A stretch of 64,000 nucleotides of DNA from NCBI GenBank assembly GCA_903918755.1, contig CAIXFN010000073.1, forward strand, positions 1 through 64,000. Direction: 5' to 3'. This document shows positions 2,131 to 5,047 of this stretch, in pieces. Every line of letters starts with the position of its first letter. Position 1 is the stretch's first letter. This DNA is from an uncultured Pedosphaera sp. (GTDB lineage Bacteria > Verrucomicrobiota > Verrucomicrobiia > Limisphaerales > Pedosphaeraceae). A program made the translations under genes and the position numbers. Under the pieces are notes generated by a model. That model did not search any database. It was not told the origin of the DNA and was given only the letters and a program-made list of their open reading frames with translations.

Positions 2131-2517
2131 TTAAGACTCTATTTTTCCACTCACAGATACTGTAAACGAATCGCCGCGCCTTGCATGTTTTGCAATCTTG
2201 ATAATGTCGGGGAAGCACTTTGTGAATTTGGTAAGTTGCACCCAAAATGCGCAATCCGTCCAGCCAGGTTTCAAAAAGAAGATGGTGTGCCCTGCCTCCT
2301 TCCAAGCCTTTACTTCATGCGGGTTGCGGCTGATACGCACGTCGGCCGTAATAATGACCCAGCAATCGTCTTGCGCCAGCGCCCTCATCCAGATTTCATC
2401 CGCTACATTCGCTGGAAATTTTTGCTTGAGATGCACGACCTGATGGTCCGGATTAGCAAATATGTTCAGACCTTCGGCCAATTTCGGCGAGAGATTGTTA
2501 TCAAAGAAAAACTTCAC
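2131..2517 (-). CDS. PIN-like toxin candidate (DUF5615/VapC45 type)
   Basis: This 128-residue protein starts MKFFFDNNLSPKLAEGL, the hallmark N-terminus of the DUF5615/VapC45 PIN-like group, and carries a second acidic strand IITADVRISR near residues 55-65. PIN-like proteins are Mg-dependent ribonucleases acting as toxins. The first acidic position is D-N-N rather than the commoner D-E-N, so catalysis may be altered. Its ATG overlaps the stop of the upstream gene by four bases (2514-2517), indicating translational coupling in the order antitoxin then toxin. The C-terminal 30 residues are basic and less conserved in appearance. Confidence 0.75.
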   Translation of the reverse strand: MKFFFDNNLSPKLAEGLNIFANPDHQVVHLKQKFPANVADEIWMRALAQDDCWVIITADVRISRNPHEVKAWKEAGHTIFFLKPGWTDCAFWVQLTKFTKCFPDIIKIAKHARRGDSFTVSVSGKIES

Positions 2518-3197
2518 GCAGCAAGCTGCCGTTCGTACGCCACGGCCTCCTCAACCGAATGAACGCTGATCGCAAACCATTGGGCAACATCCGCAACTGA
2601 CCCGTTGGCTTGGACGCTTCTGGCAAGGACGCGGGTCGGGACCCCAACGTCGAAGATGGTTGGTTGGCCGAAATTTCTCCGGGGATCAATAGCCACAGCA
2701 TGCTCTTTCCCCATGGGCCACCATCTTTCTGCTACTTCCCCGCTTGCGAATTCTAGGTTTTTTAAGAACGGAAGTGTGATTTCATCAAAGACTCGCTGGA
2801 AGTTTGCGACATCGTAAATGCCGCCTTCGGCAGTCAGTTCCCGTGCTTGGAGAAAAATCGCCCGGCCATCGGTTCCAAAGCGATTTGTGCAGAAAGGGCG
2901 CTTCTGGTTGAGAATTTCTTGCGCCTTTGAGTGAGCCTGCCTCAAAGTGTTCCAAGAGACACCGGCTTCAAGAAAGGCGTTGACGAATCGAACTTCGATC
3001 AGATCGAGAAAGCCAAGAACCACGCTGCGTCCAAGCGGATCAATCTGGCCTTGCCAAATTGGTGGTGACCGGTGTCGTCCGTGCTTGGTCTTGAATTCGT
3101 ATCCTCGCAACCACCGTCGAATTCGCCATTGGGATACCCCAGTCAAAAGCGCGGCTTCAGAAATCGTGTAAATTCCAATATCAAGTAAGCTCGCCAT
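2514..3197 (-). CDS. antitoxin candidate, winged-HTH plus DUF433 (VapB45-like)
   Basis: I take the ATG at 3195-3197 (MASLLDIGIYTISEAALLTG), giving 227 residues; an upstream in-frame ATG at 3269 adds a weak 24-residue leader. The N-terminal 60 residues form a MerR/winged-HTH-like domain (ISEAALLTGVSQWRIRRWLR). The C-terminal 60 residues are a DUF433 domain (FGQPTIFDVGVPTRVL, then DVAQWFAISVHSVEEAV). This two-domain layout followed by a PIN-like gene matches VapBC45-type toxin-antitoxin pairs, in which the first gene binds DNA and neutralises the nuclease. It probably represses its own promoter in the region upstream of 3197. Confidence 0.75.
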   Translation of the reverse strand: MASLLDIGIYTISEAALLTGVSQWRIRRWLRGYEFKTKHGRHRSPPIWQGQIDPLGRSVVLGFLDLIEVRFVNAFLEAGVSWNTLRQAHSKAQEILNQKRPFCTNRFGTDGRAIFLQARELTAEGGIYDVANFQRVFDEITLPFLKNLEFASGEVAERWWPMGKEHAVAIDPRRNFGQPTIFDVGVPTRVLARSVQANGSVADVAQWFAISVHSVEEAVAYERQLAA

Positions 3198-3598
3198 GAT
3201 TTTCGTTTTGAATCCGATGTAAGGTAAGCCATTTTTCAGTTTTCTGGCAAATGGAAAAGAGTTCTGCAATCATGCAGATTTCAACCTCGTGCTGATTCGC
3301 CATGCTGGTGGTGGCAATTCCAGATCCTCAAAACATAGAAGTTTCGTGAGGGTTCACGCCAATTGCAACCCACCCCCAAAAAGGGTGCCTGCCCTTCGAT
3401 TCTGCGCCGTCACCCCAAAAAAAGAGAGTCCTCATTTGCTGGCCAAAACTTTGGCAAAATTGCCTTTGGTGCAAGAGGGGTTTTACGCGCAACCCGTCGC
3501 CGATTCGCCCCCCGGGTGCCGGTAGGGTGGGGACGGTCCCCCGAAAAAAAGTCACCCCCCACCCGGCCCCCCCGCCTGCCACCGGTCGCCGGCCGGCA
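3198..3598. other. gene-free stretch upstream of the VapB45-like gene
   Basis: No convincing gene is seen on either strand. It should contain the promoter of the antitoxin gene at its left end. A perfect six-base inverted repeat with a two-base gap (GCCAAA-ac-TTTGGC, 3442-3455) could be an operator but is far from the antitoxin start. The right half is rich in C and A runs. No repeats with the other island genes were found by eye. Confidence 0.4.
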
Positions 3599-3769
3599 TC
3601 ACGGTGGCGGCGCGGCTTTCTTGCGCGGCTTGCCCTTTGGCCATCCGCCTTTTTTCGCATTCGCTTTGCTCGCTGCCACCTTTGCCGCGCTGGTGGATTG
3701 CCCGCCCTTCCGCCCCAGTTTCGCCAGGTAATCCCGGACCGCTGCCGGCGTGTCGCTCTCCGTGCTCAT
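3599..3769 (-). CDS. small lysine/alanine-rich basic protein (56 aa)
   Basis: Translating the minus strand from the ATG at 3767-3769 gives 56 residues: an acidic start (MSTESDTPAAV), a helix DYLAKLGRKGGQ, then repeated A/K/G segments (SAAKVAASKANAKKGG) ending KPRKKAAPPP. The LGRKGG-x-K/A-rich pattern resembles short basic proteins commonly found on plasmids and integrative elements, probably nucleic-acid binding. It lies 84 bases downstream of the DUF6573-like gene on the same strand. Function is not known; the composition and sensible ORF make it more likely real than chance. Confidence 0.6.
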   Translation of the reverse strand: MSTESDTPAAVRDYLAKLGRKGGQSTSAAKVAASKANAKKGGWPKGKPRKKAAPPP

Positions 3770-3853
3770 TGTCGTTTCGTGTTGTCTGATTCCATTGGCG
3801 GGAGCACCCGCACCACCCCCGAGGATGGCGCGAGCCCCCCGCCCGCCTTCCGT

Positions 3854-4327
3854 CTAATCCTCGCCTTGCAGGAGGATGGTAATGACCGGCTCCCCGTTAT
3901 CCCCCGGACCGCACAAGGACCAAAGCGCAATGTCATTGTGCCGGTTGCCATCCCAGACCCGGACCTTGAAGGACACCCGGTCGGAACTTGTGCGCCGGCT
4001 GGTCACCGCCTGCGCGAGCACCCAAAGGACATCCCACAGCCGCCCGTCAATGTCCTGCCCTTCCGGCAATTCCTGCCCGATGCCGCAAACCGTCGCCGCG
4101 AATGCGCCCACCGTCATGGCCACCGGATATTTGAACCCGGCCTCCCGCACCGCCCGGACCGTTTCCGCCTGCATCAAGTCCACCAGAACCCCGTCCGCGA
4201 TGGCTTGCTTTCGCGTATAAACCGCGATAGGAGCGCCAAAGAAATCCGGCGGGAGCATTTGCCCTTCCGCCGTGCTGCGCTCCGTGGCGGCCTGCCCGGG
4301 CTCGCCGGCCAACCCGTTGCCCGTCAT
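3854..4327 (-). CDS. DUF6573-like accessory protein
   Basis: The recognisable part starts at PPDFFGAPIAVYTRKQAIA and runs to the stop as PGDNGEPVITILLQGED. Features are a conserved YTRKQAIADG opening, REAGFKYPVAMT, GRLWDVLWVLAQAV and a final PGD-GEP-ITI motif, which I associate with the DUF6573 family found on plasmids and integrative elements. I choose the ATG at 4327 (157 residues); an ATG at 4258 (134 residues) is equally possible, and the longer frame extending to 4741 runs through the SymE-like gene and is artefactual upstream. It is downstream of SymE on the same strand. Its biochemical role is unknown. Confidence 0.65.
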   Translation of the reverse strand: MTGNGLAGEPGQAATERSTAEGQMLPPDFFGAPIAVYTRKQAIADGVLVDLMQAETVRAVREAGFKYPVAMTVGAFAATVCGIGQELPEGQDIDGRLWDVLWVLAQAVTSRRTSSDRVSFKVRVWDGNRHNDIALWSLCGPGDNGEPVITILLQGED

Positions 4328-4404
4328 GCCTGATTCCGATTCCCGATTGCCACCCAAACCCAACACCGGGAAATCCGCCTGCCCGGCAAACCGCCGCCGG
4401 GAAT

Positions 4405-4587
4405 TCAAGAGGCACCCCCTTCCGCCCGCAAGGTGATTTCCCCCGACGGACCCGGAACCACCACCACCCGACCGCCGGCGGGGAATCCGAGTTTCGCCAG
4501 CCATTGCCCTTGCAGGCGGATTTTGGGACAAGTTTTGCGCCGGAAAAAGTCTCCGGTCATTTCGATCTTTAAGGAACGGACCTTCAT
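4405..4587 (-). CDS. SymE-like toxin/AbrB-fold protein (60 aa)
   Basis: Sixty residues starting MKVRSLKIEMTGDFF. The core PKIRLQGQWLAKLGFPAGGR, followed by VVVVPGPSGEITL, matches the SymE family, an AbrB-related fold known in E. coli as a type I toxin that condenses nucleic acid and is regulated by LexA and the antisense RNA SymR. Length is close to the family core, and E. coli SymE is longer at the N-terminus. The region upstream of 4587 contains a repeated 9-mer and a 10-base inverted repeat that could be regulatory. No antisense RNA promoter is recognised with confidence. It is adjacent to DUF6573 and a basic protein, an accessory-element context. Confidence 0.72.
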   Translation of the reverse strand: MKVRSLKIEMTGDFFRRKTCPKIRLQGQWLAKLGFPAGGRVVVVPGPSGEITLRAEGGAS

Positions 4588-4589
4588 AT

Positions 4590-4670
4590 GTTACCCTCAT
4601 TTTGGCCGTGCCGTCTGTTCTAGCAGATTGCCTGTGGATAGTTACCCTCTCCAAAGGCTTGGCACGGCCA
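4590..4670. promoter_or_regulatory. inverted repeat and duplicated 9-mer upstream of SymE-like gene
   Basis: A 10-base perfect inverted repeat (TGGCCGTGCC at 4603-4612 and its complement at 4661-4670) brackets the presumed SymE promoter region. The 9-mer GTTACCCTC occurs twice, at 4590-4598 (directly next to the start codon) and 4641-4649. This may be an operator or a duplicated promoter/antisense region. What binds it is unknown. Confidence 0.4.
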
Positions 4671-4971
4671 TTTGTTTTTTTGGAGAAGGATTGATACATT
4701 GCGCTGCCAATATAGCCAAGCTGCTTGGGTATAGCAAGCACTATTTGAAAAATATTTTCGGCTCCGTCCTGCCCGCAAAAGATTTTTCGCGCTCCGTTGT
4801 CCGATCACGCCCCGCCAGTCCAAACCACCCCCCGAGCACCGCCGGACAGTTCCAGAACCTAAAAAGACGGACAGAAACCGGACAGTGAAGTTTTTTTGAA
4901 GAAAAATTGAGCCCGAATTTGTGCTCTTTGGAAGTGGCTTAAACCCTTGATACTGTGGATCTTAGAAGAAG
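4671..4971. other. gene-free junction between the island genes and tRNA-Phe
   Basis: No credible coding frame. It contains a short inverted repeat (TGCTTG 4722-4727 with CAAGCA 4735-4740) and three direct copies of CGGACAG (4843, 4868, 4879). It separates the SymE promoter region from the 3' end of tRNA-Phe, so it is where an integrase gene or an att-proximal sequence would be expected; no integrase frame is present. Confidence 0.4.

Positions 4972-5047
<76 letters not shown>

Follow-up and report, generated by a model that had tools for sequence, protein, structure and literature searches.

A three-way-junction motif with a loop copy of the ribosome-binding site upstream of SymE, RadC and ArdC genes: a candidate antisense RNA

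What controls the SymE-like gene that opens a small cassette in the genome of an uncultured Pedosphaera sp. (Verrucomicrobiota, Limisphaerales)? SymE is usually discussed as a type I toxin. A reading made from the sequence alone had described the cassette as three small genes on one strand, preceded by a palindromic region and lacking an obvious equivalent of SymR, the antisense RNA of E. coli symE. We analyzed the cassette within the first 64,000 nucleotides of contig CAIXFN010000073.1, referred to below as the window. The gene layout was confirmed by an open reading frame check of the window, in which all three genes lie on the minus strand, at 4587–4405, 4327–3854 and 3769–3599. The first gene (4405–4587) encodes a SymE-like protein of 60 aa from an AbrB/MazE-type family, which matched PF08845 with 25.3 bits (E 1.7e-5), below the curated Pfam cut-off of 29. 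Its relatives in two other genomes (G392 and G473) are 73% identical to it, and the one in G392 scores above the cut-off with 32.0 bits. Against the NCBIfam SymE equivalog the window protein scored 20.3 bits, where the cut-off is 132. The second gene (3854–4327, minus strand) encodes a DUF6573 protein of 157 aa (PF20213, 78.4 bits, cut-off 27). DUF6573 is a plasmid protein: relatives were detected in 216 of 72,556 plasmid records, 138 of these being called conjugative, and in none of 50,697 phage records. Its structure model (mean pLDDT 78) had no PDB match at E ≤ 0.001. The third gene (3599–3769, minus strand), identified from its reading frame and its relatives, encodes a small basic, KGG-rich protein of 56 aa that has relatives at the same place in G392 (56%) and G473 (54%), no Pfam family above the cut-off and no NCBIfam match up to E 1.

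All three genes occur in the same order in G392, which is a genome of another family. Furthermore, SymE and the small basic protein are found without a DUF6573 match in G473, SymE lies directly before DUF6573 in G118, and the order is reversed in G446, where DUF6573 precedes SymE. When the 27 genomes holding DUF6573 were considered (26 from the search plus G392), a SymE match at E ≤ 0.1 was located beside it in three, namely the window's own genome (G000), G392 and G118. The co-occurrence of the three genes expected by the sequence-only reading is thus upheld in so far as the cassette recurs, in full in G392 and as subsets elsewhere, but it is not obligate. The same reading had proposed a defence or element-maintenance unit. 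Here maintenance fits the neighboring tRNA-Phe gene with its duplicated 49-bp end, whereas defence found no support.

The tRNA-Phe gene (4972–5047, minus strand) was identified by a tRNA call and is taken as the attachment site. Its last 49 nt are duplicated with 100% identity on another contig of the same genome (G000:C58:18718–18766). The att region (4821–5020, minus strand) is 86% identical over 200 bp to C58 18718–18913 (L139), and CGGACAG-type repeats are present on both sides of the tRNA end, on both contigs. A tyrosine integrase (C58 17017–18294, PF00589, 35.3 bits) adjoins the copy on C58, so that a duplicated tRNA 3′ end and an integrase beside one end, the hallmarks of a tRNA-targeting integrative element, are both present. 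The left 4.97 kb of the window, whose start is the start of the contig, most likely represent one end of an element in tRNA-Phe of which the middle was not assembled here, and the two tRNA-end copies would then be the ends of one single element. The gene order in G392 is tRNA-Leu, integrase and SymE cassette, and a tRNA-Tyr gene lies approximately 0.55 kb before SymE in G473. At L035 7531–10986, the G392 element carrying the cassette encodes a 1151-residue SNF2-type helicase with a NOV C-terminal domain, possibly a defence gene. Beside the window cassette, on the minus strand, a PIN_10/DUF5615-like gene and a gene with helix-turn-helix and DUF433 domains overlap (2131–2517 and 2514–3269); judged from these domains the pair is likely a VapBC-like toxin-antitoxin.

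Both repeats previously noted upstream of SymE are exact. The 10-base inverted repeat joins 4603–4612 with 4661–4670, and the doubled 9-mer GTTACCCTC is located at 4590–4598, two bases before the SymE start codon, and again at 4641–4649. Folding places them in one three-way junction (4604–4669, plus strand), in which the palindrome forms P1 (4604–4612/4661–4669), P3 follows (4614–4617/4624–4627) and the second 9-mer is the loop of P2 (4630–4637/4651–4658). The fold of the plus strand from 4590 to 4685 has an energy of −37.3 kcal/mol (z −5.4), which none of 200 shuffled sequences equalled. In the aligned upstream regions of SymE relatives, the same arrangement was found again at other loci with other letters. 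Across 29 distinct sequences, in an alignment that favors the structure as it was fitted to the covariance model, 95.5% of cells are paired and the covariation score is 0.416, compared with 0.182 for shuffled alignments (0/500) and at most 0.125 with slid partners.

We inspected 30 SymE loci by eye and found the motif directly before eight of them. A covariance model built from six of these eight loci was searched against 313 genomes of the order and resulted in 32 matches of at least 33 bits in 24 genomes; the next best match had 27.5 bits. Most of these strong matches (28/32) are followed by genes that were assigned by Pfam to RadC (10), ArdC (10), an anti-restriction protein family, or SymE (8, of which five are above the Pfam cut-off and three, the window's included, below it). 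The others comprise one RadC-like frame without a Pfam match (G186), two matches at contig ends and one that was unassigned. Wherever an assigned gene follows, the start codon is 16–23 nt from the modelled core. Covariation above both shuffles and slides, together with this constant gene context, identifies the motif as a new structured-RNA family. The window motif is the sole copy in its own genome (59.1 bits, next 16.5), and several copies per genome are present in G469 and G607. Beyond the order, the phylum and class genome searches gave weak matches only: two of 387 genomes in the phylum search, the window's own among them, have matches at E ≤ 1e-4, and of the 14 genomes out of 369 with matches at E ≤ 0.001 in the class search, the six with over 50 bits are all within the order. 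Three further, weaker matches (G463, G172 and G119) keep the fold, the gene spacing and the A′ stretch described below, or nearly so; the gene behind the motif in G463 belongs to no known family. Matches under about 30 bits without gene context (e.g. L103–L106, L108, L121, L122, L124–L128, L159 and L160) were rejected as chance. On viral contigs, one exact motif pattern had no match, an ArdC query returned no loci, and a RadC query returned 16 loci, two of them with only weak model matches (17.5 bits). With at most these weak matches, and with DUF6573 absent from the phage records, a known homologous phage or virus source was rejected.

The surroundings of the motif hold several recurring genes. 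In L129 (G488) and L130 (G606) a serine recombinase, two TrwB/TraD-like ATPases, a replication-relaxation protein and a DnaG-like primase are followed by the motif and RadC or ArdC, and by eye L131 and L133 have similar frames. These neighbors in G488 and G606 are typical of transferable elements, and together they make up an element that is conserved in the order. A small gene ending in LLPEDY or similar lies upstream of the motif in L085, L083, L090, L093, L095, L096, L109, L099 and L101; one copy was searched and had no Pfam family, and in several loci a hairpin with a T-run lies between the gene and the motif. An ArdC N-terminal domain, a zincin peptidase and a RadC domain are fused in one protein in L129 (7012–8403), L109, L098, L101 and L123. 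In G607 a RadC leader with an identical core is found at four contig ends (C21, C22, C47 and C67), where several near-identical element copies broke the assembly.

A further feature is the copy of the ribosome-binding site in the loop. In the window, the P2-loop copy GTTACCCTC (4641–4649, plus strand) is complementary to the SymE ribosome-binding site, which on the gene strand reads GAGGGTAAC (4590–4598, minus strand). The letters of loop and ribosome-binding site vary by locus (GAGGGTAAC, GAAAGGTTAG, AAGGCTAGC, GAAGGAGAAC, GAGAGTTAC and others) yet change together. Over 30 loci the mean run shared by a loop and its own ribosome-binding site is 8.3 nt, compared with 5.4 nt for shuffled partners (0/5000); the motif loci are related, so that these and the other counts and p-values are not independent. 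The match is also locus-specific within SymE (9 loci, 0/5000), RadC (10 loci, 0/5000) and ArdC (7 loci, 9/5000). Since the ribosome-binding site lies outside the model, the match is an independent test for the loci that the model found. Computed duplexes have −15.6 kcal/mol for cognate and −10.7 kcal/mol for non-cognate pairs (0/10000), and no other upstream or in-gene stretch pairs with the ribosome-binding site in a locus-specific manner. The shared run is only 5 nt in G479, G598 and G380 and 3 nt in G477:C364, four of the 30 loci that keep the fold without a clear loop copy, and it is 3, 5 and 5 nt in the weaker matches of G463, G172 and G119. Because two identical stretches of the same strand are unable to pair with each other, the straightforward interpretation is that an RNA from the opposite strand would pair with the ribosome-binding site through the complement in its loop.

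We compared the two strands. Of 26 loci, 25 have the more stable fold on the opposite strand, with a mean difference of −6.4 kcal/mol, compared with 49% in 129 control stretches of downstream genes, and this holds in all eight loci that were found by SymE similarity and by eye. On the opposite strand, wobble changes amount to 42 G·T versus 6 A·C in the 29 distinct sequences, and to 7 versus 0 in the eight loci that were hand-aligned before any model; the bias comes mostly from three inner P2 pairs, without which the count is 11 versus 4, and the outer P1 pairs are strand-neutral (7 versus 5). The gene strand is also able to form the junction, with a P1 probability above 0.5 in 22 of 26 loci. 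In an unguided scan of 115 nt, the best sigma-70-like site of the opposite strand has its −10 end 8–11 nt before the core in 18 of 26 loci, and the promoter-like scores exceed those of 246 gene-body stretches with a p-value of 4e-7 (again from related loci). The −10 element of these sites (TACTCT, TACCCT, TATTCT etc.) is the complement of the ribosome-binding site. In the window, the complement of the SymE site thus holds the proposed −10, and the candidate antisense promoter (4568–4597, plus strand) consists of TTTAAG (4568–4573), 18 nt and TACCCT (4592–4597), with a score of 7.1 bits that is weak in absolute terms. When the −10 was fixed, a −35 of over 3 bits was present in 11–12 of 26 loci at spacings of 13–21 and in 7–8 of 26 at some shorter windows, a moderate and broad signal without a single prominent spacing. 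The tail after P1 has T at 10 of 12 positions in the window and 48% T on average (range 1–10 of 12). The junction and this U-rich tail make up the predicted antisense RNA (4604–4681, plus strand), which scores z −5.4 and 72.4 bits against model R1 and follows the promoter-like site; we infer both of its ends.

Taken at about even chances, the palindromic region encodes an antisense RNA that presents an anti-ribosome-binding-site loop and would confine the translation of establishment or anti-restriction genes to a short period following entry. This small RNA, of approximately 70–80 nt, would be transcribed from the strand opposite the SymE gene, starting at P1 from a promoter with its −35 in the first codons of the gene and its −10 in the complement of the ribosome-binding site, and transcription would end at the U-rich stretch after P1. 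Because such an RNA would begin downstream of its own −10, it would not carry the complement of the ribosome-binding site, and for this reason the second copy in the loop would be needed. The P2 loop would then pair in the cell with the ribosome-binding site of the SymE mRNA, or elsewhere that of RadC or ArdC, and block translation. A newly entered cell would contain no antisense RNA, so that translation of the genes would begin immediately and cease thereafter, which would result in transient establishment expression. A broader claim, which we make tentatively and hold somewhat short of an even chance, is that a whole family of cis-encoded antisense RNAs originated in this way, out of the sequence complementary to the ribosome-binding site, and by displaying the second copy in a loop provides the SymE, RadC and ArdC genes of integrative elements with an entry timer. 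The earlier statement that no SymR equivalent is apparent was probably wrong, as the palindromic region is itself a candidate antisense RNA gene, though not SymR by sequence or fold.

Could the motif instead act in the mRNA? In such a sense-strand leader switch, a stretch called A′ would have two alternative partners, the loop copy (A1) and the region of the ribosome-binding site (A2); which of them it pairs with would determine translation, and the repeat would be the usual anti-anti-Shine-Dalgarno copy. On the gene strand, A′ (CCTTCTCCAAA, 4679–4689, minus strand in the window) borders P1 on the 5′ side; its sequence complements the 5′ strand of P2 and the first half of the copy in the loop. 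Its complementarity to A1 is locus-specific, as the switch predicts (27 loci, 6.93 versus 5.12, 0/3000), and reaches 8–10 nt in G463, G172 and G119 as well. In 22 of 26 loci the junction also forms in the sense leader, where the ribosome-binding site is partly paired, and sense promoter-like sites upstream of the motif score above gene-body controls with a p-value of 0.017; the candidate SymE promoter in the window is TTGCTA-17-TATATT (4709–4737, minus strand, 10.8 bits), with similar sites in G392 and G473. However, A′ matches the A2 of its own locus no better than that of others (4.78 versus 4.82, p 0.62), a control stretch further upstream also shows a weak excess against A1 (p 0.033), and the A′:A1 pairing appears in the computed sense ensemble in just 3 of 26 loci, where the sense strand folds worse in 25. 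The A′:A1 pairs are strand-neutral (20 sense G·T, 15 A·C). Moreover, the A1–A2 repeat extends past the part covered by A′ in 19 of 26 loci (3.79 versus 3.21, 6/10000), and a simple sense switch therefore does not explain the whole repeat. Given the three weaker loci without a copy of the ribosome-binding site and some neutral strand tests, we rate the switch as unlikely rather than negligible. If the antisense RNA is made, A′ may, speculatively, hide the sense loop copy from it.

It is the gene's template strand that folds better, which would also suit a single-stranded-DNA element of the transferred strand whose folding upon entry would promote early transcription or priming. ArdC belongs to an anti-restriction family, and copies of the motif adjoin genes for coupling-protein-like ATPases, primase and recombinase. 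The Frpo single-stranded promoters likewise place secondary structure before anti-defence genes of this kind, but they carry −35 and −10 in the stem (both from partial text of PMC11541004), and this was not seen in the motif. The stems of the window motif are G+C-rich without −35/−10 hexamers, the other loci being inspected by eye. SymE promoter-like sites, where seen, are upstream of the motif and outside the stems, as is the site in the window, and a single-strand promoter has no need of the loop match to the ribosome-binding site. We consider this explanation improbable. We give similarly little credence to binding sites of an element-encoded protein, in which the loop 9-mer and the one by the start codon would be two RNA or DNA operator copies: operators would agree with the direct repeats, whose letters are specific to each locus, and with A′ as a third, inverted copy, but the covarying junction and the folding preference for one strand are left unexplained. 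A fold without regulatory role, carried along as a hitchhiking repeat of element ends, could account for the several copies in G469 and G607 but not for a spacing of 16–23 nt before three unrelated gene families, and is very improbable.

The antisense reading was also compared with known systems. An Rfam covariance search of the window, the cassette and 20 matched loci returned nothing at the motif, and its identity with SymR, the radC motif, C4 or another known RNA was rejected on this ground. With E. coli symE/SymR the window locus shares a SymE-family gene, a candidate opposite-strand RNA at its 5′ end and anti-Shine-Dalgarno letters in a hairpin. SymR differs in that, by its annotation, it starts inside symE and covers the start codon and the ribosome-binding site, and in that it folds as two hairpins and does not match model R1. 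In addition, the motif, unlike symE/SymR, is also used by RadC and ArdC. The C4 antisense RNA of phages P1/P7 is a structured RNA upstream of its target that pairs with the ribosome-binding region, and is encoded on the same strand as the target; it had no Rfam match in the window, the cassette or the matched loci. The radC RNA motif RF01754, listed for Proteobacteria (Weinberg 2010), and STAXI resemble our motif as structured motifs linked to genes such as radC or antirestriction (both from partial text of PMC2864571), and both stayed below threshold in the window, the cassette and the 20 matched loci. The partial text of PMC8708921 describes EGeRS1 and EGeRS2 of pLS20-family plasmids, conserved sequences before ardC and other establishment genes, for which a need for rapid and transient expression is argued. 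According to the same partial text, EGeRS1 spans 400–600 bp with multiple inverted repeats and an unknown mechanism, compared with approximately 100 bp for the region of our motif, and EGeRS2 works through a repressor protein.

A literature search that mostly stopped short of full texts (including PMC8708921, PMC11541004, PMC2864571 and PMC1891008) found no description of the three-way-junction motif. Brief expression of anti-restriction genes after entry is known for systems with a repressor or a single-strand promoter and is open for others, as far as the partial text of PMC8708921 indicates; a compact RNA motif with a constant place and gene context offers a testable third answer. If the entry timer is true, the genes would be translated on arrival and silent once the RNA has accumulated, and one site would serve as Shine-Dalgarno sequence on one strand and as −10 box on the other. 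SymE would then share its control with RadC and ArdC, and SymE-like proteins may accordingly take part in establishment.
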